This document shows, piece after piece, positions 2,107 through 20,255 of a DNA stretch of 20,501 bases (its first letter is position 1; each line of letters begins with the position of its first letter). The notes under the pieces were generated by a model. The model searched no databases and had not been told where the DNA came from. It saw nothing but the letters and a program-made list of their open reading frames with translations. A program made the position numbers and the translations under genes. This DNA comes from a virus, in the IMG/VR virus record IMGVR_UViG_3300012357_000016, positions 1 to 20,501 of that record; one strand, given 5' to 3'.

Positions 2107-2606
2107 GCGACCGCTTCATCTATTGTCTCCCGTGGCCACCGTCGCTCAACGAGCAATATGTCAACCGGCGCGCGAAGGTGAAGAAGGGACCGAAGGCGGG
2201 GAAAGTCTACATGGCGCGGATGGGCTCCGACGAGGCGAAGGCGTACAAGCACCGCGTAACGGTCGAGGTCCGTCGCGGGCATCAAGTCCCGCCTCGGCTC
2301 TCCGGGCGCCTCGACGTCGTCATGCTCGCCTACCCGCCGGCGTCGTTCGGCGCGCGGCGGTTCGACCTTGACAACTATTGGAAGCTCGTCCTGGATTCGC
2401 TGAAGCTCGCCGGCGTCATCGCCGACGATTCGCTCTTCGACCGCGAGGAGGTCTTCCGCGGGAATCCGGTCAGCGACGGTCGGCTGCTCGTCTCGATCGG
2501 GCGCTACGATCCGGAAAGGGCGAGATTCTCGCTCAACGAGGTCGGCCTCCCGGGACCGGCCGAGGCGATGGCGACCGCCGACCTGCTCTCCGCAGCGCCA
2601 TTTTGA
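2103..2606 (+). CDS. rusA: RusA-family Holliday junction resolvase-like endonuclease
   Basis: RusA enzymes are small dimeric, metal-dependent nucleases that resolve four-way DNA junctions formed in phage recombination and replication. This 167-residue protein begins with the family's PWPPSLNEQYVN segment (residues 10-21) and carries the acidic core RFDLDNYWKLVLDSL (86-100) followed by GVIADDSLFD (104-113). D88, D90 and the D108-D109 pair are in the places expected of the catalytic aspartates, with K94 nearby. The length is slightly above the E. coli protein (about 120 residues) because of a Pro/Ala-rich tail. GTG 2103 overlaps the previous stop. It fits with junction clean-up before packaging. 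The family call is confident. Confidence 0.88.
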   Translation: MSDRFIYCLPWPPSLNEQYVNRRAKVKKGPKAGKVYMARMGSDEAKAYKHRVTVEVRRGHQVPPRLSGRLDVVMLAYPPASFGARRFDLDNYWKLVLDSLKLAGVIADDSLFDREEVFRGNPVSDGRLLVSIGRYDPERARFSLNEVGLPGPAEAMATADLLSAAPF

Positions 2607-3499
2607 GTGGGAAATGGATCGGGGGACTCGCGGAGTGGCAGGAAGGCGACACGACGTTCCTGTCGATCGCCTTCACGTGGAAGCTCGACGAAGCGTACTC
2701 ACGCGCGCTTTTCGCCAAGGCGTGCGGTCGGCGGGTGATCGCGGGTGGGCCAGCGCTGTTCCTGAGCAAGATGAAGCACGAACTCGCTGACGTGGCCGAG
2801 ATCCGAGCCGACTATCCGGACGCGATCGCGCGCCACAATCCGGACGCGACGATTGCGAGCCGCGGCTGTCCAGTCGGCTGTTGGTTCTGTATCGTCCCGG
2901 CGATGGAAGGGCGCGAATTTACGCTGCTGCCAGACTTCCCGGTGCGGCCGGTCCTCTGCGACAACAATCTGTCGGCCCTGCCGGCCGACTACCAGGATCA
3001 TATTATCCGGCGCTATCAAGAAGTGGGCATGCCGCTCCGGGACGCGAACTCCGGATTCGAGCCGATCACGTTCACCGAGGAGGTCTATCGGCGCTGGAAG
3101 CCGCTCCTGAACGCTGGCGGGGGTCCGTGGCGCTTCGCCTACGACGAGATGAAGGAAGGACCTCAAGTGCGCCGTGTGATGAAGATGCTCGAAGCCGAGC
3201 GACCCAAGCGAAAGCGGGTCTACGTCCTGATCGGAAACGAACCATATGCCGAATGCATGGCGCGCATCCAAGAAGTGATCGACGCGGGCTGCGAGCCGCA
3301 CGTCCAACCGTACATCAAGCTCTCCTCGTTGCATCGAGAGCCGCACGTGCGCTTCGACTGGACCGCCCAGAAGCTCGCCGACGTAGTCCGTTGGGCGAAC
3401 GGCTTCGTCTGGAAGAGCGCGCCGTTCGAGGAGTACGATCGGTATCGAAAGAACGTCGCGTCTGAGAGCTATGATGAGCAACAGGGACTCTTCATCTAG
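2603..3499 (+). CDS. Radical SAM superfamily enzyme, substrate unknown
   Basis: Radical SAM enzymes use a 4Fe-4S cluster to cleave S-adenosylmethionine and start radical chemistry. The 298-residue product has the cluster motif CxxxCxxC at C89, C93 and C96, in ASRGCPVGCWFCIVPA. This context resembles the RGCP..C.FC form seen in radical SAM proteins that carry a cobalamin-binding N-terminus. The preceding 80 residues include FTWKLDEAY and VIAGGPALF, reminiscent of a shortened B12-binding fold, but I cannot confirm that. Downstream LCDNNLSALP and ANSGFEPITF lie where the barrel strands should be. TTG 2603 overlaps the RusA stop as TTGA and is the first start after it. It is not QueE-like, whose Cys spacing differs. 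Possible roles are nucleotide or tRNA modification. Confidence 0.85.
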   Translation: MSGKWIGGLAEWQEGDTTFLSIAFTWKLDEAYSRALFAKACGRRVIAGGPALFLSKMKHELADVAEIRADYPDAIARHNPDATIASRGCPVGCWFCIVPAMEGREFTLLPDFPVRPVLCDNNLSALPADYQDHIIRRYQEVGMPLRDANSGFEPITFTEEVYRRWKPLLNAGGGPWRFAYDEMKEGPQVRRVMKMLEAERPKRKRVYVLIGNEPYAECMARIQEVIDAGCEPHVQPYIKLSSLHREPHVRFDWTAQKLADVVRWANGFVWKSAPFEEYDRYRKNVASESYDEQQGLFI

Positions 3500-3755
3500 G
3501 AAGTCATGGTCCAAGACCTACGAGTTCGACGGGCGTCGCATGACGGTGCGCGCCTGGGCCCGCGAACTCGGGTTGACTTACCAAGGACTCTACAGGCGGC
3601 TCGCCAAGTGGTCGATCGAGCAAGCTCTCGGGCTCCCGAGGCGGCCCGAGCGACCGGAGGCGCGAGCGGCGCGGCGCTCGGCGCGGCGCCTCCGCGAGAC
3701 GCGCGAGATGATCCTCGGCGGCGCCCGGCCTGGTCATGCGGTTTATCGATCGTGA
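3471..3755 (+). CDS. Small basic HTH-like protein
   Basis: The product has 94 residues from ATG 3471 (a second ATG follows at 3474). It overlaps the 3' end of the radical SAM gene by 29 bases in another frame. The core is YEFDGRRMTVRAWARELGL, then TYQGLYRRLAKWSIEQALGLP, a helix-turn-helix-like layout typical of phage proteins often found beside HNH nucleases. The C-terminal 40 residues are very Arg-rich (PERPEARAARRSARRLRE) and probably nucleic-acid binding or disordered. It is followed directly, in GTGA overlap, by the HNH gene, so the two may work together. The regulator/DNA-binding role is inferred from the HTH alone. Confidence 0.65.
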   Translation: MMSNRDSSSRKSWSKTYEFDGRRMTVRAWARELGLTYQGLYRRLAKWSIEQALGLPRRPERPEARAARRSARRLRETREMILGGARPGHAVYRS

Positions 3756-4297
3756 GTTCCGTCCGGCGCTATCCGCTGATCTCCGACGCGCTCCGCCGCG
3801 CGGGGTTGGCTCTGCCGCCGAGCGCCGACGCGCCATCGAAGCGGGTCCGTCAGGCGAGGCGACCCGCGCCAGTCCTCGTGGTACTCGGCAGGAAGCTCCC
3901 GATGGAAGCGGCGCGGTTCATCGCGACCTCGAAGAACGGCTGGTCGAAGAAGCGCGTCGTCCTCTGGCACGAGCAGGACGGACTGTGCCACTGGTGCCGC
4001 CGGCCGATGGTCCTCGTCGAGCCGAGCGCGAAGTCGGGTCGCCTGCCGCCGAACGCCTGCACGATCGATCACCTCCGGTCGCGGCTCGATCCGACCCGCC
4101 GAATCCCGCCGCGGGACAACGAGCGGCGCCTCGTCGCCGCGTGTCACGGCTGTAATACTTCGCGCGGGGCCAGAGAAGACGCCGAGCGAAACCGCGCCCT
4201 GAGCCGTCAGGAACTTTGGCTGCGGAGCGGGAATCTGTACAAGATCGCCAAAATGACCGGCGCGCTGAACGAGGTCGACGACCTCGCTCCTCGATGA
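3752..4297 (+). CDS. HNH endonuclease
   Basis: HNH nucleases are metal-dependent DNA nickases or endonucleases; in phages they occur as homing enzymes or packaging partners. This 181-residue protein shows the zinc-ribbon type: C79 and C82 in LCHWCRRP, the catalytic D106-H107 in TIDHLRSR, N123 in RDNERRLVAAC, and C131/C134 followed by N135 in CHGCNTSRG. The N-terminal 50 residues are basic and may bind DNA. GTG 3752 overlaps the HTH gene's stop. The gene lies about 3 kb before the large terminase, not directly beside it, so a packaging role is possible but not shown. All core residues are present, so it should be active. Confidence 0.88.
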   Translation: MSSVRRYPLISDALRRAGLALPPSADAPSKRVRQARRPAPVLVVLGRKLPMEAARFIATSKNGWSKKRVVLWHEQDGLCHWCRRPMVLVEPSAKSGRLPPNACTIDHLRSRLDPTRRIPPRDNERRLVAACHGCNTSRGAREDAERNRALSRQELWLRSGNLYKIAKMTGALNEVDDLAPR

Positions 4298-5040
4298 CTT
4301 CGCCCGACAAAGATCGCGTGCCGATTTGCGGGACCCGCGGCCTGACCGTCTCGCGCGCCATTTGGGACGAGGCATGGATCGCCTACGTCAAGCGGTACGG
4401 AAGCGGCGCGCAGGATCGTCAGCACGCGCGGCTGCTCGCCGAGGGCTTCTATGCCAGCGAGCTGGACGACCTCCGCCCCGGCTGGCGCCCCATCGATCAG
4501 AGGATCGCGGCGCTGGAGGGGTCCCTCGCCGAGGCGAACCGCGTCTGGTCGGAACTTTCGGCGCTCGTCGCCTGCAGCTCGCCGGATGGCAGCGCCGAAC
4601 TCGGTCAGGTGAAGCATCTTCAGGAGCGGTTCGCGAACCACACGAACGCGGTGGCCGACTTCCTGAACGAACTCTACGCGATCATGGTCGATCCGTGTGC
4701 CGAGGGGACGACGAGCGTCGAGGACGTCAAGGCCGCGCTCAAGGCTGCTGCGCTTCGCGATCGAGAACGCTCGGCGTCGCCGGCCACGCATTTCGCGATC
4801 GAGCACCGCGGGCTCTACTTCTGCGCGCTCGACATCGGGACGCGACCGCCGAATCTCGTCTGGTCGCCTCCCGGAGCTGTGAACGAGCGGAGGCCGGCGC
4901 ACGTCTTTCAGACGAAGGTCGACGCCGAAGAGATCATGAAGCTGTGCCCGCCGGGATCGGAAATCGTCCCGGTTCGGGTCGAACTCGGCCGTTCCGATCG
5001 CGCGGCCTCGAACGATTCGGAAGGAGGCGCCCTTGACTGA
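4294..5040 (+). CDS. Hypothetical phage protein, two-part
   Basis: A 248-residue product from ATG 4294 (ATGA overlap with HNH). The N-terminal part (about 1-150) is helical, with RAIWDEAWIAYVKRYG, then a long helix IDQRIAALEGSLAEANRVWSE and another, HLQERFANHTNAVADFLNEL. The C-terminal part (about 165-235) is beta-rich: HFAIEHRGLYFCALDIG, NLVWSPPGA, HVFQTKVDAEEIMKL and EIVPVRVEL. This suggests a helical region joined to a separate small domain. I recognise no family. The 3' end contains the strong ribosome-binding site of the next gene. It could be two ancestral phage genes fused, but no in-frame start strongly supports a split. Confidence 0.7.
   Translation: MTSPDKDRVPICGTRGLTVSRAIWDEAWIAYVKRYGSGAQDRQHARLLAEGFYASELDDLRPGWRPIDQRIAALEGSLAEANRVWSELSALVACSSPDGSAELGQVKHLQERFANHTNAVADFLNELYAIMVDPCAEGTTSVEDVKAALKAAALRDRERSASPATHFAIEHRGLYFCALDIGTRPPNLVWSPPGAVNERRPAHVFQTKVDAEEIMKLCPPGSEIVPVRVELGRSDRAASNDSEGGALD
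5021..5027 (+). promoter_or_regulatory. Strong Shine-Dalgarno site AAGGAGG
   Basis: AAGGAGG is a near-perfect ribosome-binding site ending 5 bases before TTG 5033. It decides that TTG is the start of the next gene, and it lies inside the coding sequence of the previous one. Confidence 0.8.
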
Positions 5041-5479
5041 CGATCTGGACTTCGACGCCCCGCCGCGCGGGCGAATCGGCGGGCCGCGTCCTCGCCGGGG
5101 GCGCGGATCGACGTCGAGGGCGAAGCACGGCCTCTTGATCATGGTCCCCCCGTCGGTCCGGCGCGCCGCGCGCGAGAAGCTCTCGCTGATTCACGGCGTG
5201 AACCTCTCGCCCCAGTGCGGCATCGCCTCGATCGCCCGAGCGATCGCGAAGGCGCTCGCGCTGCCCCTGCCAGATGACTTCGGCGCCTCGACCCGGCTCG
5301 TGACCGGCTTCGTCGGGAAGCCGCTCGCCGATCCGGTTCCGCCGCCCGCCGAGCGCCCGTTCGTCCCGCTCCGCGTCTCCCCGGAGATGGAGCGCGCGCT
5401 CGCTCGGACCCGCGCTGCGCGCGAGGTAGGAACGCCGTCGAGCGGCAGTTCGATTCGCCCTCGAACGGTTCCGGAGTAG
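5033..5479 (+). CDS. Hypothetical basic protein
   Basis: The protein has 148 residues from TTG 5033, chosen because AAGGAGG sits 5 bases upstream. The first 30 residues are acidic and then Arg/Gly-rich (RGRIGGPRPRRGRGS). A middle segment, HGLLIMVPPSVRRAAREKLSLIHG, is followed by IASIARAIAKALALPLPDD; the strand-helix-helix order resembles a ribbon-helix-helix or similar DNA-binding unit, though weakly. A second segment, RPFVPLRVSPEMERALARTRAAR, has a similar strand-helix character. No family is recognised. It is the last gene before a short AT-richer gap that precedes the packaging genes. Confidence 0.65.
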   Translation: MTDDLDFDAPPRGRIGGPRPRRGRGSTSRAKHGLLIMVPPSVRRAAREKLSLIHGVNLSPQCGIASIARAIAKALALPLPDDFGASTRLVTGFVGKPLADPVPPPAERPFVPLRVSPEMERALARTRAAREVGTPSSGSSIRPRTVPE

Positions 5480-6830: not shown

Positions 6831-7211
6831 GTGAGCATCTGCAAGGTTCACAGGGAGCGGCTTCAAGCCGCCCTTCAGAAGCGCGACCTTTGGCGGCTCG
6901 TAAAGCCCGAGCGCGCGAAGGAACTCGCGAACCGTTGGCTCTCGGGGGAGATGCGGAACGAGGGCGACTTCGATCCCTACGTCGTCTGCTGGCTGGAGAT
7001 CCACGCTCACGCGGTCGAACTCCTCCGCGACTTCGGGCCGAAGTCCCGCGCGTGCTCGCTCTGCGAAGTCGAGCGACAGACGCGCCGCGGGATCGCGGAT
7101 CAGTGGATCGACCGCTTCGCCGACCTCGTCTGGGCGCTCGCCGTGAAGATGGGCCTTGCGAAGCCGCCTCAGAGCGGGCGCTCGTTCATTTCGGAGGCGC
7201 ACCTTCACTAG
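6831..7211 (+). CDS. Hypothetical phage protein with Cys pair
   Basis: The 126-residue product starts at GTG 6831 after a short purine-rich leader (AGGGGGG). It opens SICKVHRERLQAALQKR, continues with helices (LWRLVKPERAKELANRWLSG and VCWLEIHAHAVELLRDFG), and has a CSLCEVERQTRRG segment followed by DQWIDRFADLVWALAVKMGLA. The CxxC pair followed by a tryptophan-bearing helix resembles a segment I recall from phage hypotheticals that may bind zinc. It lies directly before the large terminase. No function can be stated; an accessory packaging role is a guess from position. Confidence 0.7.
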   Translation: MSICKVHRERLQAALQKRDLWRLVKPERAKELANRWLSGEMRNEGDFDPYVVCWLEIHAHAVELLRDFGPKSRACSLCEVERQTRRGIADQWIDRFADLVWALAVKMGLAKPPQSGRSFISEAHLH

Positions 7212-7221
7212 TCGCGCGCCG

Positions 7222-8610
7222 ATGTTCGTCGACGAGGCGATCCTAGAAGAAGCCGCCCTGCCGCTCGCGGCGCTCGGAGCTGCGGTCGCCGGCGAGCGGC
7301 GCAGGCGGGAGATGGTCCGGAGCTACCAGTCGCTCGTGGAGCGGCCGGAGCACGTGTTCCACGACCTCCTTCTCCCGGCGCCGTACAAGGTCTTCTACGG
7401 CGGGCGCGGCGCGGCGAAGGACTGGGCGTTCGCCGAGACGCTCCTCAAGCGCGCGGTCAAGGAGGCGATGATCGTACTCTGCACGCGCGAGTATCAGAAG
7501 TCGATCGCGGACTCGGTTCACCGCGTGCTGAGGCACATGATCACGCGGCTCGGGCTCGACTCGCAGTTCGACGTGACGGACAAGTCGATCCGATCCTACG
7601 CGGGGACGGAGTTCATCTTCAAGGGCCTGCACCACAATTCGGAGGAGATCAAGTCGACGGAGGCGGTCAAGATCACCTGGGTTCACGAGGCGCAGAACAC
7701 GACGGAGCAGTCCTGGCTCGATCTCCTCGCGACCGTCTTCCGGCTCCCAGACTCGGAGGTCTGGGTCTCGTTCAACGTCACGGACGAGACCTCGGCGACG
7801 CACACGCGGTTCGTCACGAACCCGCCGCCCGGGGCGATCGTTCACAAGGTCAACTACACGGAGAACCCGTTCTTCCCGACGCGGCTTCGGGCGCTCATGG
7901 AGCACGACCGGGAGACGAATCCGCTCGTCTATCGGCACATCTGGCTCGGGGAGCCGCGGAAGATTTCGACGGCCGTGATCCTCGGCGGGCGGTTCCGGGT
8001 CAAGGAGTTCCCCGACGACCTCTGGAAGCAGGCCGAGCGCCTGATGTTCGGCGAGGACTTCGGCTTCGCGAACTCGCCGGCGGCGATCGTTCGGTTCTTC
8101 GTGCTCTCGAACCAGCGCTGCCGCGAACTGGGGTTGATTGAGCCGGGCGACCCGCTCGCCGACTACCCGCGGATCTTCGTCGAGCACGAGGTCGGCGGGA
8201 CCGGGGTCGACACGGAGGAGCTGCCGGCGCTTCACGACGCGGTCCCGGGCGCGCGGGAGTGGCCGATCAAGTGCGACTCGGCGCGCCCGGAGACGATCTC
8301 GTTCCTCCGCGGGAAGGGGTTCAACGCCTCGGCCGCCGAGAAGTGGAACGGGTCGGTCGAGGACGGGATCACGCACCTCCGCGGGCACGTCATCGTCATT
8401 CACCCGCGCTGCGTGCGGACCGAGAGCAACGCGGGGACGTACTCGTATAAAGTCGACCCGCGCGTCATCGACCCGGAGACGAACGCGCCGCAGGTCCTGC
8501 CGATCATCATCGACGCGCACAACGACTACATCGACGCGATCCGCTACGGGCTCGACGGGTACATCCAGCACCGCGGGGGGCTCGCGACGTGGGCGAAGCT
8601 CGCCGGATGA
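7222..8610 (+). CDS. terL: Terminase large subunit (PBSX/P22-like)
   Basis: The large terminase is the ATP-driven motor and nuclease that packs and cuts phage DNA at the portal. The 462-residue product has an N-terminal ATPase with a P-loop VFYGGRGAAKDW (residues 57-68) and Walker B KITWVHEAQN (150-159, E156 catalytic). The coupling region SFNVTDE follows near 183. The RNase H-like nuclease has its acidic residues at D279 in FGEDFGF, D352 in CDSARPET, and D435/D438 in HNDYIDAIRYG. The P-loop ends in Asp rather than Ser/Thr after the Lys. ATG 7222 starts the protein; the frame extends upstream without homology. Length matches the family. It overlaps the LuxR-type gene by 4 bases. Confidence 0.95.
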   Translation: MFVDEAILEEAALPLAALGAAVAGERRRREMVRSYQSLVERPEHVFHDLLLPAPYKVFYGGRGAAKDWAFAETLLKRAVKEAMIVLCTREYQKSIADSVHRVLRHMITRLGLDSQFDVTDKSIRSYAGTEFIFKGLHHNSEEIKSTEAVKITWVHEAQNTTEQSWLDLLATVFRLPDSEVWVSFNVTDETSATHTRFVTNPPPGAIVHKVNYTENPFFPTRLRALMEHDRETNPLVYRHIWLGEPRKISTAVILGGRFRVKEFPDDLWKQAERLMFGEDFGFANSPAAIVRFFVLSNQRCRELGLIEPGDPLADYPRIFVEHEVGGTGVDTEELPALHDAVPGAREWPIKCDSARPETISFLRGKGFNASAAEKWNGSVEDGITHLRGHVIVIHPRCVRTESNAGTYSYKVDPRVIDPETNAPQVLPIIIDAHNDYIDAIRYGLDGYIQHRGGLATWAKLAG

Positions 8611-8852
8611 ACGGCCGCGATCCCTCGACGGGGCAGTTCAAGCGCGGGGAATCGCCGAGCGCGCTCTCGCCGAAGCAGGTCGAGATCGTCCAGTACATCG
8701 CGAACGGGAAGCGGAACGAGGACATCGCGCTCCTGATGAACACGAGCGAGGCCGCGGTGACCAATCAGCTCGTTCGGATCATGAACTTGACCGGCTGCTC
8801 GACGCGCTCCGCGGTGGTCTCCTGGGCATTTCGCCGAAAGTTGATAAGATAG
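8607..8852 (+). CDS. LuxR/GerE-type helix-turn-helix protein
   Basis: This is an 81-residue, almost pure DNA-binding domain. After a basic opening (GRDPSTGQFKRGE), residues about 20-80 follow the LuxR/GerE pattern: ALSPKQVEIVQYIANGKRNEDIA (helices 1-2), LMNTSEAAVTNQLVRIMNLTG (turn and recognition helix), then STRSAVVSWAFRRKLI (helix 4). There is no receiver or ligand-binding domain, so activity would depend on expression or a partner. It starts in ATGA overlap with the terminase gene. It may switch late transcription or tweak host genes, or be a structural adaptor in packaging. The HTH call is secure; the role is not. Confidence 0.82.
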   Translation: MNGRDPSTGQFKRGESPSALSPKQVEIVQYIANGKRNEDIALLMNTSEAAVTNQLVRIMNLTGCSTRSAVVSWAFRRKLIR

Positions 8853-9085: not shown

Positions 9086-9501
9086 AGCTCTCCGATCTCG
9101 AAGCGACGTTCATCCGGTACGAGGCGCGAGAGCCGCACGCCGAGGCGCTCAGGCTGAACCCCGGCGCGAAGGTCGCTCACTGGGTCATCCCGGTCGAGAC
9201 GTTCGCGGAGGCGCACGGCGTTCAGTTCGCGTGCCCGAAGGCGACGGCGGAGCGCGGGAAGGCGCACGCGCACCGCGCGCGGCTCTGGTTCTGGGGCGCG
9301 CCGGTCGATCCGGAGATCGGGAAGAACAAGCTCGGGAAGCCGAAGCGCTGGCGCGTCGTCTCGGGGAAGACGCTCGACTCCTTGACGCTCGCCCCGGCGA
9401 TCGCGGAGGAGGACGACGCCTGCGGCTGGGCGGGGACGGTTCAGAACGGGGAGGTCGCCACGGCGCCGGCGGAGAAGGCGAAGAAGAAGAGGCTCGCATG
9501 A
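9082..9501 (+). CDS. DUF6527-like protein
   Basis: A 139-residue protein from GTG 9082. It follows the pattern I recall for DUF6527: an opening MKLSDLEATFIRYE, then AEAHGVQFACPKA, HRARLWFWGAPV, KRWRVVSGKTLDSLTLAPAI and a closing CGWAGTVQNGEV. Most family members have a CPxC pair in the second block; here the second Cys is Ala (CPKA), which would weaken a metal site. The function of the family is unknown to me. It lies between the terminase and the portal and ends in the recurrent junction motif with the exported HNH gene. Confidence 0.72.
   Translation: MKLSDLEATFIRYEAREPHAEALRLNPGAKVAHWVIPVETFAEAHGVQFACPKATAERGKAHAHRARLWFWGAPVDPEIGKNKLGKPKRWRVVSGKTLDSLTLAPAIAEEDDACGWAGTVQNGEVATAPAEKAKKKRLA
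9489..9501 (+). repeat. Recurrent gene-junction sequence GAGGCTCGCATGA
   Basis: This copy is identical to 946-958 although the two flanking gene pairs are unrelated and 8.5 kb apart. It ends the DUF6527-like gene with Arg-Leu-Ala and supplies the ATG of the next gene. Confidence 0.6.
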
Positions 9502-10007
9502 GGCTCGTCGCCCTGCTCCTAGCGCTCCTCTCCTCGTCGATCGCGCTCGCTGGCCCGGGAGGGTTCGCCATCATCGCGGCGTCCGCGCGGCCGTTCGCTC
9601 GCGACGTGCCTGACTTGTTCAAGACCCCAGGCTCGACGCGCCCGATCTCGTTCGTCGCGATCTGCGCGACGAAGTGGGGCCGCGACGCGCGGCACGTCAC
9701 GGCGGCGATGAGGCACGCGGTCTTCGCCTCCTACGGCCTCTCCGGGCGCGACGACCCGGCGTGCGGCGCCGAGGGCTGCGAGGTCGATCACTTGATCCCG
9801 CGCGAACTCGGCGGGGCGGACGAGGTTCAGAACTTATGGCCTCAGCCGATCGCGGGGAGCCCGTGGAACGCGCGGCTCAAGGACCGGCTGGAGAACCGGC
9901 TCCGCCGCGACGTGTGCTCGGGCAAGATCGGGCTCCGAGAGGCGCGCCTCGCGCTCGTCGGCGATTGGCGCGTCGCATATCTGAAATACTACGGCGTGGC
10001 GCCGTGA
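9498..10007 (+). CDS. HNH endonuclease with an N-terminal signal peptide
   Basis: The 169-residue product opens with a textbook signal peptide: a basic start (MRLV), a hydrophobic core ALLLALLSSSIALA and a likely cut after A18 (IALA/GPGG). The mature part carries an HNH-type fold: C94-E-V-D97-H98 in GCEVDHLIPRELGG, N112 in VQNLWPQPIAG, and NARLKDRLENRL after it. Four cysteines (C56, C89, C94, C140) could form disulfides, which suits an exported protein. It resembles exported bacterial HNH nucleases. The gene starts in the ATGA junction and precedes the portal gene. Possible roles are degrading DNA outside the cytoplasm or in the periplasm, or acting in the envelope against rivals. The nuclease call is sure; the location is predicted. 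Confidence 0.8.
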   Translation: MRLVALLLALLSSSIALAGPGGFAIIAASARPFARDVPDLFKTPGSTRPISFVAICATKWGRDARHVTAAMRHAVFASYGLSGRDDPACGAEGCEVDHLIPRELGGADEVQNLWPQPIAGSPWNARLKDRLENRLRRDVCSGKIGLREARLALVGDWRVAYLKYYGVAP

Positions 10008-13407: not shown

Positions 13408-13854
13408 GTGACCCGCGTCTTCCTCGACGACGTGGACCTCACCTCCGGGATAATCGCCGCCGGGGAGATGCTCCGGGTTCACGGGATCGAGGTCGTGATC
13501 GAGAACCCGAAGGGATCGGTCCGGCGCGGAGTGGGGCCCGACGGCGAATCCTGGGAAGCCGTCCTCGCGGCCGATTACGGCTACGTCCGCCGGGTCGACG
13601 GCGGGGACGGCGAGCCGCTCGATTGCTTCGTCGGCCCGAACGCCCTGAGCGACCGCGTGTTCGTCGTCCGGCAGGTCGATCCCGAGACTCGGGAGTTCGA
13701 CGAGCACAAGGTTCTCTTCGGGTATCAGACGATCGTCCGCGCGGCGGCCGACTACGTCGCGAGCTACTCGGACGACGCCTGGCGCCGCGTTAGCGCGATC
13801 TACGAGATGTCGATGCCGGAGTTCAAGCGGTGGGCGCGCGACCCCTCGTTCTAG
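13408..13854 (+). CDS. Stand-alone inorganic-pyrophosphatase-like domain protein
   Basis: The 148-residue product has NPKGSVRRGVGPDGESWEAV, DYGYVRRVDGGDGEPLDCFVG (around 57-75), VFVVRQVDPETREFDEHKVLFGY and SMPEFKRWA. It matches the phage pyrophosphatase-like (InPase) domain. D67-G-E-P-L-D72 resembles the D-G-D-P-x-D signature of family I pyrophosphatases, with E in the second acid place. Such domains usually sit next to, or are fused to, phage head and portal proteins; here it is separate. Whether it hydrolyses PPi or another phosphoanhydride is unknown. GTG 13408 has GGAG five bases upstream. It overlaps the Mu gpF-like gene by 25 bases. Family call fairly sure. Confidence 0.8.
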   Translation: MTRVFLDDVDLTSGIIAAGEMLRVHGIEVVIENPKGSVRRGVGPDGESWEAVLAADYGYVRRVDGGDGEPLDCFVGPNALSDRVFVVRQVDPETREFDEHKVLFGYQTIVRAAADYVASYSDDAWRRVSAIYEMSMPEFKRWARDPSF

Positions 13855-14618
13855 ACCTCCGCGGGCGTCGCGAGGCGAGGCGGGCGACCCGCGAGCGCTG
13901 GCTCCGCGTCCGGCTCGCGGAGCGCCGATACGCGAAGCAGCTCCGCGGAGTGGCGCGCGAGGTCGGGCGGATCGTCGAGAAGATGGCTCCTCGCGGCGTC
14001 GTCGAGGCCCCCGCGCGGCTCGTAGAGGCGCTCCGGCGCTATCGCGACATCGTCCGGCCATGGGCCGCCGCGGTCGCCGAGAAGACCCTCGCCGACGTCG
14101 CGCTCCGCGACGAGCGCGCCTGGAACTCGCTCGCCTCGGAGATGGGCCAGGAGATCAGGTCCTCGATCCGGCGCGCGCCGATCAGGCCGACGCTCGCCTC
14201 GCTCCGCGAGGAGCAGGTCGAGTTGATCACGAGCCTCCCCGAGGAGGCGGCGGCGAGGGTTCACCGCCTCTCGATCGAGGCGCTCTCGTCCGGCGCGCGG
14301 GCAAAGGAAGTTTCCGAGGAGATCATGCGGACCGGCCTCGTCGCGAAGGCGCGCGCGAACCTGATCGCGCGGACCGAGATCGGGCGGGCGTCGAGTCACG
14401 TCGCGCGCGTCCGCGCCGAGGCGATCGGGAGCGTCGGCTACATCTGGCGGACCGCGCTCGACGCCGACGTCCGGCCGATTCACCGCAAGCTCGAAGGCAA
14501 GGTGATCTCCTGGGACGATCCGCCGATCGCCGGGGAGAACGGGGAGCGCGCTCACGCCGGCGCGATTTACAACTGCCGTTGTTATCCGGAGCCGATCCTG
14601 CCAGAGGAGATCGCGTGA
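13830..14618 (+). CDS. Mu gpF-like head morphogenesis protein
   Basis: This minor head protein helps build the capsid near the portal in Mu-like and SPP1-like phages. The 262-residue product is helical at first, with the conserved block LIARTEIGRASSHVARVRAE (178-197), then YIWRTALDADVRPIHRKLEG (204-223), VISWDDPP, and a closing HAGAIYNCRCYPEP (242-255). The C-terminal NCRCY is typical of the family. The GTG at 13830 lies 25 bases inside the upstream gene. The next gene overlaps its stop as GTGA. It is in the expected place between portal and protease/scaffold, though several genes intervene. Confidence 0.92.
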   Translation: MGARPLVLDLRGRREARRATRERWLRVRLAERRYAKQLRGVAREVGRIVEKMAPRGVVEAPARLVEALRRYRDIVRPWAAAVAEKTLADVALRDERAWNSLASEMGQEIRSSIRRAPIRPTLASLREEQVELITSLPEEAAARVHRLSIEALSSGARAKEVSEEIMRTGLVAKARANLIARTEIGRASSHVARVRAEAIGSVGYIWRTALDADVRPIHRKLEGKVISWDDPPIAGENGERAHAGAIYNCRCYPEPILPEEIA

Positions 14619-14992: not shown

Positions 14993-15502
14993 ATGAGACC
15001 CTCGAAGCCCTGGAAAGCCCTGCTGATCATGCCCGTCATCGCCGTTCTCGTCGCGGCCTGGGTCGGGTTCCTCGTCTATCAAGGACCGGCGCTCGGTCAG
15101 ACTGCGGGCGCGATCCAGATCATCGGGCCGCTCACGCGCGACAACGGGGCGATTCAGACCTTGACGGCAGCGCAGGGGCCGGCGACGTTCAACTCGGCGG
15201 ATCAGTCCGGGTTCAACGTGACGCGGATCACCTGCGTGTTCCGTCAGACGACCTCGACGGGCGCGCCCACGAGCACGTTCACGATCCAGAACAAGGACGC
15301 GGCGAGCGGGGTCTATTACAACCTCATCACAAGCTCGAACGTGACCACACCGGCGACGACGAGCTTCATCGCGGCCGGCGGCGACATCGTCACGACGGCG
15401 AACCTCTCGATCGGCTATCCCGTGGCCCGGACGTGGCGGACGAGCTTGACCATAACGTCGACGGCGACCGTGACCGGCACGATCGGATGCTCGCTCCAGT
15501 GA
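14993..15502 (+). CDS. Exported or membrane-anchored beta-rich protein
   Basis: The product has 169 residues from ATG 14993, with CGGAGG eight bases upstream. A basic start (MRPSKPWK) and a hydrophobic core ALLIMPVIAVLVAAWVGFLV form a signal peptide or anchor, possibly cut near ALGQTAGA (about residue 35-38). The rest is Thr/Ser-rich and beta-rich: QTLTAAQGPATFNSADQSGF, TRITCVFRQTTSTGAPTST, VYYNLITSSNVTTPATTSF and SLTITSTATVTGTIGCSL. Two Cys could pair outside the cytoplasm. It could be a surface or decoration protein. It overlaps the O-antigen-ligase-like gene by 4 bases, which suggests a shared envelope job. Confidence 0.6.
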   Translation: MRPSKPWKALLIMPVIAVLVAAWVGFLVYQGPALGQTAGAIQIIGPLTRDNGAIQTLTAAQGPATFNSADQSGFNVTRITCVFRQTTSTGAPTSTFTIQNKDAASGVYYNLITSSNVTTPATTSFIAAGGDIVTTANLSIGYPVARTWRTSLTITSTATVTGTIGCSLQ

Positions 15503-16599
15503 ATTCGTCTTCCCAGGCGGGCTGGCGGGAACGGCCCGGGCGAGTCGGAGATCAGCCTCGCCTGCTCGCTTGGTCCCTCTTCGCGCTCGGCCTCGTCGTC
15601 GCGCTCGCGTTCTGGCCCGGCATGATCGGTCCTGCGACCGTCCCGAGGTGGGCCGCGATCGCCGCCATCGCGCCGGGCGTCTTGCTCTTTTCGCGGGATC
15701 GCGTCGGCGGAGCGGCGTGGGCGATTCCGGCCGCGCTGCTCCTGATCTCCGGGGCGTCGCTTCTCTGGGCTCCCGACGCGCTCACCGGCGCGGACGATCT
15801 CGCGCGGCTCGCCGTTCTCGGCGTCGTCTTCGCGCTCGGCGCATCGACGCCGGACCTCCGCCAGGTCTGGGTCGGCCTCGCGCTCGGGGTCTCGGCCTCC
15901 GCGGCGCTCGCGATCGCTCAGGTCTTCGGATTCGACGGCGTCTTTCAGGCGGTCCCGCCGGCCGGACTCTTCGTCAACAAGAACTTCCTCGCCGAGGCCG
16001 GGATGGTCGCCATCGTCGCCTCGATCGGCCTCGGCCTCGTCTGGGCGATCCCCGGGGCCGCGGTCGCCGCAGCGCTCGGGTCCTCGACCGCCGTCGTCGG
16101 CGCGCTCTCCGTCGTCCTCGCGATCGCGCTCTTCGACCGCGGCCGGAAGGTCCTCGCATTTTCCACCGTGACTGCCGTAGTAACCGTCGCCGCCGCGCTC
16201 TTCGTCCTCGGGACGCCGGGCGCGGCGGCGCGGCTCGACATCTGGGCGGACGCGCTCTTCGATCCGCGCTGGCTCGGGCACGGCCTCGGGGCGTTCTCGG
16301 CGACGCTCCCCTGGGTCGGATACGCTCATTCGGAGCCGATTCAACTCGTTCACGAACTCGGCGCGCTCTCGGCGCCGTTCTTCGCGGTCGCCTTCTTCGC
16401 CCTCGGAGCAAAGCATGACGCACCCGTCGAGTGGCACGTCCTCGTCGCGCTCTGCGCGGTTTCGCTCTTTTCTTTCCCGCTTCACCTGCCGCTCACGGCG
16501 TTCGCTTTCGCGCTTGCCGCTGGCCGCTGCGTGGGCGCTCGGGCTCCTCTACGCCTTCGCGATCCTTTCGTCGGAGCTTTCGCTCATGCGCGTGCTTGA
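15499..16599 (+). CDS. O-antigen ligase/polymerase-like (Wzy_C superfamily) membrane protein
   Basis: These enzymes act in the inner membrane on undecaprenyl-linked sugars, joining O-antigen to lipid A-core or polymerising it. The 366-residue product has about ten hydrophobic segments and a periplasmic-type loop near residues 235-288. Family-like marks are LFVNKNFLAE (158-166, the N-x-N site), RLDIWADALF (245-254), the Gly turn GHGLGAF (260-266), and H277 to G288 (HSEPIQLVHELG). The length is near the family's usual 350-450. GTG 15499 overlaps the previous stop. T-ending codons before CAN codons are frequent here, as in the virion genes, so it is not a very recent arrival. The superfamily call is fairly sure; ligase versus polymerase is not. 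Confidence 0.75.
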   Translation: MNSSSQAGWRERPGRVGDQPRLLAWSLFALGLVVALAFWPGMIGPATVPRWAAIAAIAPGVLLFSRDRVGGAAWAIPAALLLISGASLLWAPDALTGADDLARLAVLGVVFALGASTPDLRQVWVGLALGVSASAALAIAQVFGFDGVFQAVPPAGLFVNKNFLAEAGMVAIVASIGLGLVWAIPGAAVAAALGSSTAVVGALSVVLAIALFDRGRKVLAFSTVTAVVTVAAALFVLGTPGAAARLDIWADALFDPRWLGHGLGAFSATLPWVGYAHSEPIQLVHELGALSAPFFAVAFFALGAKHDAPVEWHVLVALCAVSLFSFPLHLPLTAFAFALAAGRCVGARAPLRLRDPFVGAFAHARA

Positions 16600-16753
16600 T
16601 GGCAACGGGCACTCGCTCGGCGAGGTCCTCGCCGCCGCGGACTCGTCCGTGAGCGCGTGGCCGCCTAGTCAAGTTCACCGCGAACTCCGGACCGGCATGC
16701 GTCGCGTCGCGGCCGAGATTCAGGCCGACGCTCGCGCGGGGAAGATCAAATGA
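16514..16753 (+). CDS. Small membrane protein downstream of the O-antigen-ligase-like gene
   Basis: A product of about 79 residues if TTG 16514 is used; ATG 16586 would give 55 residues and lose the membrane segment, while ATG 16415 would add a shadow-like Arg/Ser-rich N-terminus. One transmembrane helix, LAAAWALGLLYAFAILSSEL, is followed by a soluble tail with a helix VHRELRTGMRRVAAEIQADA. The codon pattern changes to this frame near 16515, while the upstream gene's last 28 codons lose their G/C third positions. It therefore overlaps that gene by 86 bases. It ends in ATGA overlap with the protease gene. Function unknown. Confidence 0.5.
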   Translation: MPLAAAWALGLLYAFAILSSELSLMRVLDGNGHSLGEVLAAADSSVSAWPPSQVHRELRTGMRRVAAEIQADARAGKIK

Positions 16754-18324
16754 TCGAGCAATTCAGGAAAGCGCTCAGGGAATATCTCGATTCGCCTGTG
16801 CGATTTCCGCCAATGCGATTGAGGCCGCCTCTCACGTGCGACGATTCCTCCGCGATCGACGCTCGCCGCGCGCGCTTCTACGAGGCGGCGAAGCTCGGCG
16901 AGAAGCAGGCCGTCACCCCCGAGGGCTTCCTCGTCTGCTACGACGTGCCGCTCGCGCGGACGGGGATCATGTGGTACGCCGAGAGCGAACTGATCGGCGA
17001 GGACGACGAGCCGCTCATCTCCGGGGTCGACGGGAAAGTCCAGATCACGCGCGAGGAGGACGAGGTCTTCCGGAAGGAGCACGTCGACAGCTACGTCGGG
17101 AAGCCGGTCGTGAACGACCATCCCCCGGTCGAGATCACGCCCGAGAACTGGAAGCTCTACGCGACCGGGACCGTGATCGCGACGCGCCGCGGGACCGGGA
17201 TGCAGAGCGATCTCCTCCTCGGGGACATCGTCGTCTGCGAGCCCTCGGCGATCGCCGACGTGCGCTCCGGGAAGCGCGAGGTCTCCTGCGGCTACGACGC
17301 GAAGTACGACGAGACCGGGCCGGGGAAGGGGAGGCAGCACACCATGATCGGGAATCACGTCGCGCTGGTCGACTCTGGTCGCTGCGGCCCGCGATGCTCC
17401 ATCGGCGACCGGAAGACCACAGGAGACTCGGACATGAGGACGCTCGATCACCGCACCGTCGACGACGCCAGCGGGAGCAATAAGGCCAAGGTTCAGGACT
17501 GGTTCAAGCGGTTCACGGACGGCCTGAAGGAGGCGATGAAGAAGGGTGGCGACGCGCTCGAAAAGTATCTCGGGGATGCGAGCAACTCGCCCGAGGCGAT
17601 GCTCATGCGGGACGAGGGCGGCGGACCCGGCGGCGAGAACGAGCTTCACCTTCACCTCGGGGGCGGCGGCGAGAAGGACCGCAGGATGACCGACGAGGAG
17701 ATCATCAAGCGGTTCGAGGAGTTCGGCACCGGCATGAAGAGCATCGGCGACATGGTCGCCGGGATCGCGGAGAAGGTCGGCTACAAGCCCGGCGAGAAGG
17801 GCCAGACGGATCAGCTCGGCGAGGAGGCGAAGAAGGCCGAGGGCGCCCTGAAGGAAGAGGCGCCAGCTGGGACCGGCGACGCGGCGATCAAGGCGGGGAC
17901 GAAGGACTCGGCCCTGCTGGAGGACGCCTGGCGCGAGGCGCTCTCGCTCGGCGAGGTCCTCGTCCCCGGCATCCGCCCGTCGACGACGTTCGACCGGGCG
18001 ATGGAGGCGAAGAAGACGCTCGACGCGCTCTGCGGCTTCCGCAGGACGACGCTCGACCTCGCGTATCATCAGCCCGAGGGCCGGGCGATGATCGATCAGC
18101 TCGTCGGCGGGAAGCCGCTCGACCTGGCCGCTATGCCCTGTGGCGAGATCCGCACGCTCTTCCGCTCGGCGGCTGCGATGAGGAAGACCGCGAACGACGC
18201 CATGCTCCGCGCGCGCGGCGGAGAAGGCGAGCGCGACCCGTCCCGGGGCGGCCCGGCGAAGGCGCCGAGGACCGGCGCCGAGCTGAACGCGCTCCACGCC
18301 AAGTGCTACGGGTACGCGAAATAA
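16750..18324 (+). CDS. DUF2213 prohead protease/scaffold
   Basis: DUF2213 proteins are thought to combine a maturation protease with a scaffold for capsid assembly. The 524-residue product has the protease-like N-terminus: EGFLVCYDVPLARTG (58-72), ITREEDEVFRKEHVDSYVGKP (99-119), the His in NDHPPV (H124), KREVSCGYDAKY (175-186, S179) and NHVALVDSGRCG (202-213). H124, S179 and H203 are candidates for catalysis. From about 225 on it is charged and helical (LKEAMKKGGDALEKYLGDA, then MTDEEIIKRFEEFGTG), as expected of scaffold that is removed. ATG 16750 overlaps the upstream stop. It precedes cement and capsid genes, the usual order. The family call is confident; cleavage is inferred. Confidence 0.9.
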   Translation: MIEQFRKALREYLDSPVRFPPMRLRPPLTCDDSSAIDARRARFYEAAKLGEKQAVTPEGFLVCYDVPLARTGIMWYAESELIGEDDEPLISGVDGKVQITREEDEVFRKEHVDSYVGKPVVNDHPPVEITPENWKLYATGTVIATRRGTGMQSDLLLGDIVVCEPSAIADVRSGKREVSCGYDAKYDETGPGKGRQHTMIGNHVALVDSGRCGPRCSIGDRKTTGDSDMRTLDHRTVDDASGSNKAKVQDWFKRFTDGLKEAMKKGGDALEKYLGDASNSPEAMLMRDEGGGPGGENELHLHLGGGGEKDRRMTDEEIIKRFEEFGTGMKSIGDMVAGIAEKVGYKPGEKGQTDQLGEEAKKAEGALKEEAPAGTGDAAIKAGTKDSALLEDAWREALSLGEVLVPGIRPSTTFDRAMEAKKTLDALCGFRRTTLDLAYHQPEGRAMIDQLVGGKPLDLAAMPCGEIRTLFRSAAAMRKTANDAMLRARGGEGERDPSRGGPAKAPRTGAELNALHAKCYGYAK

Positions 18325-19061: not shown

Positions 19062-20255
19062 ATGAAGACCTCCTTCGAGCCGCGCGAGCGGCCAATCGCC
19101 CGCGGAGTCCGCGCGTTCACGCGCGACAACATGATGACCTACGACGGGGCGGTTCCCGTGATGGACCGCTCCCCGCTCTGGGGGTGGCAGCGCGACATCC
19201 CGGTTCATCCCGGGATGCCGATCTCCTACGGCGCCGGCGGCGGGCGCGGCGGGGTCGTCACGCACGACGGGCGGACCTGCGACTCGACCGGCGCGTTCCT
19301 CGTCGGGGAGCTGGAGCGCCTCGACCCGACGATGCACGAGCCGCTCGCCGCCGTCTCCTGGGGGCGGGACATCGACGTGCGCGAGGACGTGACCGTTGCC
19401 GACGACGTCTCCTCGTTCACCCTGACGACGTTCGCCTCCCCGGGCTCGCTCGGGACGGGGAGCGGGATCGGGACCGGAAAGGCGTGGGCCGGGAAGGCGA
19501 CAGACCAGATCACGGGGATCAACGTTGACGTCGCGAAGATCGCGAACGTCTTGACGCCCTGGGCGATGGAGCTGAAGTACACGATCCTGGAGCTGGAGTC
19601 CGCCGCGAAGCTCGGCCGGCCGATCGACCAGCAGAAGTTCTCGGGCCTGAACTTGAAGTACCAGATGGACACGGACGAGCAGGTCTACTTCGGGGACGTC
19701 GGGCTCGCGGTGAAGGGGCTCGTCAACAACGCGCTCGTCACGTCCACGGGGAACGTCGCGAACGGGGCGGGCGGCTCGCCGCTCTGGACGAACAAGACGC
19801 CGGACGAGATCCTCACGGACTTCAACACGGCGCTGACGACCGTTTGGGCCGCGAGCGCCTTCGCGATCGTCCCGTCGAACGTCCTCCTGCCGACGAAGGC
19901 GTACGGGTACATCGCGACGCAGAAGGTCTCGCTCGCGGGCAACCTCTCGATCCTCGCGTACATCGAGCAAAACAACCTCTTCGCCCGCGAAGGGAAGGGG
20001 AACTTGCGCATCTTCCCGGCGAAGTTCTGCAACGGCGCGAGCGCCGGCGGAGCGATCGGGACGGGCGGCGCCGGGTTCGATCGGATGGTCGTCTACACGA
20101 AGGACAAGGATCGAGTCCGGTTCCCGATGACGATGATTCAGCGGACGCCGATCCAGTACGACGGGATGTATCACAAATGCACGTACTTCGGCCGCCTCGG
20201 CGTCGTCGAGGTCGTGTATCCGGAGACCGTCGGGTACTTCGACCAAATCTCCTGA
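19062..20255 (+). CDS. Major capsid protein (DUF2184-type, HK97-fold expected)
   Basis: The major capsid protein forms the shell. The 397-residue product matches DUF2184-type phage capsid proteins in length and layout: an N-terminal arm with PIARGVRAFTRDNMMTYDGA, the block DIDVREDVTVADDVSSFTLT, a helix WAMELKYTILELESAAKLGR with LNLKYQMDTDEQVYFGD after it, VGLAVKGLVNN, ILTDFNTALTTVWAAS, FAIVPSNVLLPTKAYGYI and a C-terminal RFPMTMIQRTPIQYDGMYHK, then GRLGVVEVVYPETVGYF. AGAGGA is seven bases upstream of the ATG. No long scaffold-like N-terminal domain is present, which fits a separate scaffold at 16750-18324. Confidence 0.92.
   Translation: MKTSFEPRERPIARGVRAFTRDNMMTYDGAVPVMDRSPLWGWQRDIPVHPGMPISYGAGGGRGGVVTHDGRTCDSTGAFLVGELERLDPTMHEPLAAVSWGRDIDVREDVTVADDVSSFTLTTFASPGSLGTGSGIGTGKAWAGKATDQITGINVDVAKIANVLTPWAMELKYTILELESAAKLGRPIDQQKFSGLNLKYQMDTDEQVYFGDVGLAVKGLVNNALVTSTGNVANGAGGSPLWTNKTPDEILTDFNTALTTVWAASAFAIVPSNVLLPTKAYGYIATQKVSLAGNLSILAYIEQNNLFAREGKGNLRIFPAKFCNGASAGGAIGTGGAGFDRMVVYTKDKDRVRFPMTMIQRTPIQYDGMYHKCTYFGRLGVVEVVYPETVGYFDQIS

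Follow-up and report, generated by a model that had tools for sequence, protein, structure and literature searches.

The DNA analysed here, referred to as the window, is the IMG/VR virus record IMGVR_UViG_3300012357_000016, a 20,501-base fragment of an uncultivated phage. It carries a head operon in which PHROGs placed the large terminase subunit (start at 7156), the portal (10026), a Mu-gpF-like protein, a protease, a decoration-like protein (18303) and the major capsid protein (remaining starts in Table 1). The gene of interest, ORF1, lies within this operon, as had been proposed in the original prediction, and on the same strand as its genes. The gene order is Mu-gpF-like, a Ser/Thr-rich protein, ORF1, a second and overlapping frame designated ORF2, prohead protease, decoration-like and major capsid. 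The genes are tightly packed; the ATG of ORF1 falls inside the end of the upstream gene, whose stop occupies 15500-15502, and the stop of ORF2 overlaps the protease ATG by 4 nt. ORF1 had been predicted at 15499-16599, of which the stop and the open frame were right; the start was reassigned to the ATG at 15487, with the GTG at 15499 as an alternative. ORF1 is coding, as GC3 in its frame is high until about 16,510. Its GC3 (0.83) is nevertheless below that of the head genes of the window (0.905-0.947), and the enzyme gene lay below its neighbours in every relative checked. The codon context therefore resembles that of the resident genes in part, as claimed, and GC3 does not show the long residence that had been deduced from it; the lower value may reflect either later acquisition or the composition of a membrane protein.

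Table 1 Features of the head operon and of the ORF1 protein, in window positions.
Feature	Position	Strand	Basis
Mu-gpF-like head morphogenesis protein	13830..14618	+	phrog_324, E 1.3e-61
Upstream gene; N-terminal signal/anchor and Ser/Thr-rich body, overlaps ORF1 start	14993..15502	+	ORF call
ORF1; polytopic membrane protein, very probably of the Wzy_C superfamily, 370 aa	15487..16599	+	ORF call; family via relatives
GLFVNKN motif (residues 160-166); F162, N164 and N166 kept in most bacterial Wzy_C relatives	15964..15984	+	alignment
T201; takes the place of R191, the first phosphate-binding Arg of WaaL (7TPG)	16087..16089	+	alignment; role of R191 from PMC10920833
R249; aligned with WaaL R265 (pyrophosphate-binding Arg)	16231..16233	+	alignment; role from PMC10920833
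GHGLGAF (residues 264-270); G264, G266 and G268 nearly invariant	16276..16296	+	alignment
H281; aligned with WaaL H313 (proposed acceptor-activating base)	16327..16329	+	alignment; role from PMC10920833
ORF2; basic N-terminus, then a single transmembrane helix (from about 16517) and a TPR-like tail	16415..16753	+	ORF call, +1 frame, recurrence in relatives
Head maturation protease / scaffold-like protein	16750..18324	+	phrog_1961, E 2.1e-85 (no function given); phrog_530, E 3.2e-46
Major capsid protein; query for finding related phages	19062..20255	+	phrog_264, E 1.4e-71

Family assignment and predicted active site of ORF1

As a single sequence, ORF1 had no match in Pfam, PHROGs, NCBIfam or the PDB sequences, and tblastn against the INPHARED phages returned no relative. 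A profile search of genome contigs with an alignment of three phage proteins likewise gave no relative, and a scan of viral contigs for the motif NKNxxAEAxM returned only members already known and unrelated proteins. The family was assigned through relatives. The homologs from loci L109 and L112 exceed the PF04932 cut-off of 31.7 bits (33.8 and 33.4, respectively), and those from L105, L039 and L113 score below it (E 2e-6 to 9e-4). Bacterial relatives were obtained through whole-genome profile searches, and when three phage proteins were set against 12 bacterial Wzy_C proteins in hhalign, the result was 99.2% (E 3e-19); the bacterial Wzy_C profile in turn reaches the O-antigen ligase WaaL of Cupriavidus metallidurans (PDB 7TPG/7TPJ; CAZy GT121) with an E value of 1.5e-12. 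In a phylogenetic tree the seven phage proteins fall on one side of a branch of moderate support (92/87), and Wzy-beta of phage D3 lies on a very long branch. An AlphaFold model of ORF1 built without an alignment was unusable (pLDDT 44.5), and one built with three sequences was still poor (pLDDT 46.6, pTM 0.48). Comparison of the latter with about 1000 chains by VIA-align ranked WaaL (7TPG) first, ahead of the SEDS proteins, with a Z of 6.7 over 218 residues, a value within the range of common helical arrangements; Foldseek found no significant match for the same model. The original prediction had suggested a structural comparison with WaaL; the top rank of WaaL, on a model of such low confidence, corroborates the family without proving it. 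Together with the conserved Arg and His described below, these results place ORF1 very probably in the Wzy_C (O-antigen ligase) superfamily, as originally predicted from its residue patterns.

The patterns themselves, NKNFLAE, RLDIW, GHGLGAF and one further pattern, are present in ORF1: GLFVNKNFLAEAGM occupies residues 160-173, RLDIW residues 249-253 and HSEPIQLVHELG residues 281-292. In WaaL (7TPG), R191 and R265 bind the phosphate/pyrophosphate and H313 is the proposed base that activates the acceptor (PMC10920833). When matched to 7TPG through the bacterial profile, R249 and H281 of ORF1 correspond to R265 and H313. These two residues had been singled out as R245 and H277; their conservation held up and their numbering changed, as they are now counted from the ATG. 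The Wzy_C superfamily is marked by an Arg and a His conserved in the large periplasmic loop. All seven phage proteins, and essentially every bacterial relative in the alignment, keep R249, GxGxG and H281, and it is this conservation across phage and bacterial proteins which argues that the motifs are not a product of chance. ORF1 may work like WaaL. It differs from WaaL in the R191 column: the window (T201) and L037 have Thr, L039 and L113 have Lys, and only L105, L109 and L112 have Arg. Since WaaL (GT121) is characterised by two phosphate-binding Args and a base His, and the first of these Args is absent from ORF1, we file ORF1 as a Wzy_C relative and not as a WaaL. The activity may be weak or altered as a consequence of the Thr; the loss of the first Arg need not abolish activity, as in the SEDS enzymes of the same clan only the second Arg aligns (PMC10920833). 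ORF1 further differs from WaaL in being phage-encoded, in lying within a head operon and in being accompanied by ORF2 in the +1 frame, and at 370 aa it is shorter than most of the bacterial relatives found, whose open frames span 440-590 aa.

An overlapping frame at the 3' end of ORF1

The most unusual part of the locus, missed by the original prediction, is ORF2, which overlaps the 3' end of ORF1 by 185 nt in the +1 frame. It could start at the ATG at 16415, preceded by an SD-like GGAG, or at a TTG at 16514. At about 16,510-16,525, roughly 75-90 bases short of the ORF1 stop, the coding signal leaves the ORF1 frame for the +1 frame. The window, L039, L109 and L112 show this switch in codon score clearly, L037 and L113 weakly. 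A +1 frame of this type is present in all six complete phage loci (the window, L037, L039, L109, L112 and L113), and the truncated L105 has the same layout as far as it is visible. In this layout the motif FP[LF][HY]xPxT and a short hydrophobic stretch are followed, in the +1 frame, by a single transmembrane helix and a helical TPR-like tail whose length varies. Of 41 bacterial Wzy_C genes, seven carry a +1 ORF that reaches 100 bases beyond the stop, and three of these look membrane-spanning; the difference between the phage (6/6) and the bacterial (3/41) genes gives a Fisher p of about 8e-6, which overstates the independence of the phage loci because they share ancestry. A sequencing indel is an unlikely origin of the layout, given its recurrence in independent contigs. 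Taken together, ORF2 is quite likely to be a real gene or extension. The term TPR-like is our reading of the sequence pattern in the tail, and the Pfam TPR models gave no match to ORF2.

ORF2 could be translated either by separate initiation or as a +1 frameshift fusion with ORF1. In-frame starts with an SD-like sequence are found in most loci (ATG 16415 in the window, ATG 4463 in L037), and a TTG start occupies one homologous position in L039, L109 and L105. No slippery sequence common to the loci was seen at the frame switch. We prefer separate initiation since a fusion would join two transmembrane helices without a linker. A nested gene would also fit the expected topology better, with the C-terminus of ORF1 and the basic N-terminus of ORF2 inside and the tail outside. 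Separate initiation is thus probable, though not proven, and frameshifting is possible at a clearly lower likelihood.

Distribution and neighbouring genes

A search with the capsid protein found 37 related loci, one of which, L037, carries an ORF1 homolog (36% identity over residues 1-339) upstream of its portal gene. A profile of the window and L037 proteins led to L039, a phage of a different portal lineage, whose portal was then used to find L109, L112, L113 and the near-identical pair L104/L105. The enzyme is hence found in seven phages, counting this pair once, which belong to two head-gene (capsid/portal) lineages and carry it in different slots of the module. No enzyme was detected in 21 of the 23 virus records searched with the enzyme profile. 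Its scatter over lineages and slots, and its absence from these records, indicate that it is an accessory gene of head modules. Eight related virus records of 24-64 kb, six of which carry the enzyme (among them L037, L109, L112 and L113), had no match to Glycos_transf_2 or to the tyrosine integrase model Phage_integrase; all 14 control genomes were matched in this search. The absence of integrase and glycosyltransferase genes is weak evidence, as the records may be fragments.

The gene upstream of ORF1 (14993-15502) has an ortholog at 7420-7896 in L037, with 51% identity and a clearer Sec signal peptide. The same Ser/Thr-rich signal/anchor family has a third member at 4-345 in L005 (38% identity), a fragment in which no enzyme gene was found. 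L037 also encodes, at 48-2636 and upstream of the slot of the enzyme, an 862-residue repetitive protein rich in Gly, Ser and Thr, which has no PHROGs match. Genes with apparent Sec signal peptides are frequent downstream of the portal in loci L103-L182, being present in 37 of the 48 loci with at least 4 kb of downstream sequence, for example at 3566-3985, 4202-5179 and 5188-6663 in L039 and at 9426-9617 and 9862-10815 in L109. They were counted by a simple home-made rule, for which the minus-strand control gave nearly none.

Possible roles of the enzyme

We propose that ORF1 would be an inner-membrane glycan transferase of the GT-C fold and of the Wzy_C / O-antigen-ligase type, expressed late and acting on a host-made glycan linked to undecaprenyl-pyrophosphate (Und-PP). 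R249 would hold the pyrophosphate, and H281 would serve as the base activating a periplasmic acceptor. ORF2, most likely translated separately as a nested gene, would add a transmembrane helix and a periplasmic TPR-like domain, the counterpart of an in-frame C-terminal extension in some bacterial Wzy_C proteins. The likeliest use of such a system would be the alteration of the O-antigen or of another surface glycan late in infection, and we may guess that competing phages, or the phage's own progeny, would then no longer bind to the dying cell and its debris. For this explanation as a whole, from the transferase with its nested ORF2 to the late change of the surface glycan, we consider the chances to be about even.

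The layout assumed for the two proteins has known parallels. Bacterial Wzy_C-TM-TPR proteins, of which L207 is an example, continue from the Wzy_C domain into one transmembrane helix and TPRs; they do so in one frame, whereas the phages use two. Comparison of ORF2 with the TM-TPR tail of L207 gave no significant similarity (0.7%), and the correspondence is accordingly architectural only. PglL and PglS belong to the same clan as ORF1, with the same active-site plan and a periplasmic C-terminal domain after the membrane part, an arrangement that the transmembrane helix and tail of ORF2 would resemble; the phages, however, encode this additional part in an ORF of its own and in another frame.

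The likeness to PglL and PglS raises the alternative of an O-linked oligosaccharyltransferase, which would transfer the host Und-PP glycan to Ser/Thr residues of exported proteins, such as those encoded by the adjoining phage signal-peptide genes. PglS shares the active site of WaaL and has a large periplasmic C-terminal domain (PMC12800693), the shape that ORF1 and ORF2 combined would take. The appeal of this role lies in the exported phage proteins encoded alongside: in the window, L039, L109, L112 and L113 the enzyme adjoins a gene whose product begins with a signal or anchor segment. Such genes are, however, also common in loci without the enzyme (33 of 44, compared with four of four with it), so that a specific association between the two was sought and not found, and a scan of ORF1 and ORF2 with the PglL_A and Wzy_C_2 models gave no match, although even the PF04932 model misses the window protein. 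We regard protein glycosylation as doubtful. A narrower form of it, a late two-part oligosaccharyltransferase of the phage in which the Wzy_C chain and the nested TM-TPR chain, or a +1 fusion of the two, would glycosylate exported or virion proteins of the phage, appears rather unlikely; if true, it would mean that lytic phages carry host sugars. In a polymerase of the Wzy-beta kind, a new linkage between repeat units would alter the receptor, leading to seroconversion. Phages D3 and VarioGold provide precedents (PMC9658991), since D3 Wzy-beta and VG_p25 of VarioGold are, like ORF1, phage-borne membrane proteins of the Wzy_C type. These phages are temperate and carry the enzyme outside the head module: wzy-beta of D3 lies on the opposite strand beside attP and the integrase gene, a contrast that the original prediction had drawn correctly, and VG_p25 belongs to a separate, oppositely oriented cluster beside the lysis genes (PMC9658991). 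ORF1, in contrast, lies in the late head operon on the same strand, no integrase was found in the larger records of related phages, and it therefore lacks the D3-type character of a temperate-phage moron outside the late structural operon. In the column of the WaaL His, inverting polymerases of clan GT-C1 mostly carry Asp or Glu (PMC10920833), and ORF1 has His281; as D3 Wzy-beta also aligns a His in this column, which is compatible with a polymerase, we withdrew H281 as an argument against this reading, and the residue does not exclude a Wzy-beta-like enzyme. The very long branch of D3 Wzy-beta in the tree also speaks against a polymerase of this kind, which we hold to be unlikely.

ORF1 might instead act as a decoy or inhibitor: as a relative of weak catalytic power, it would occupy the Und-PP glycan, or else the polymerase or ligase of the host, and so lower surface O-antigen. 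That the window and L037 lack the first phosphate-binding Arg, and that two other phages have Lys in its place, would fit this reading. The strict retention of R249, H281 and GxGxG in the phage clade, together with the first Arg in three relatives, argues for preserved catalysis, and the SEDS precedent of a lone second Arg points the same way, which makes a decoy improbable. That ORF1 is no glycan enzyme at all, but some unrelated polytopic membrane protein (a transporter or holin, for instance) which matches the motifs by chance, would explain the lack of single-sequence matches and of a significant Foldseek match for the poor model; set against the profile comparison, the Pfam matches of the relatives, the residue conservation and the match to 7TPG, this is highly improbable.

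A late lytic enzyme acting on the host glycan is more likely than lysogenic seroconversion of the D3 type, a preference that rests on the position in the head operon and on the lack of integrase and family-2 glycosyltransferase matches in the records. The Wzy_C-type genes of D3 and VarioGold are lysogeny-type morons, whereas here one clade of the superfamily occurs in the head modules of two capsid/portal lineages; such a clade, with no integrase detected, points to glycan remodelling within the lytic cycle. With its conserved nested ORF2, the locus also lends itself to a direct test for a split membrane glycosyltransferase or for +1 frameshifting.

Elsewhere in the window, the frame at 13408-13854, within the head module and beside the Mu-gpF-like gene, encodes an inorganic-pyrophosphatase-like domain (PF18823, E 1.6e-40), and a similar ORF adjoins the portal gene in the prophage-like locus L043. 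The product of 2378-3499 contains a Cys cluster (CPVGCWFC) and a sub-threshold match to Radical_SAM (E 0.008), and is a possible phage radical-SAM enzyme. Directly after the terminase gene, 8589-8852 encodes a small helix-turn-helix protein of the LuxR/GerE type (E 5e-8).
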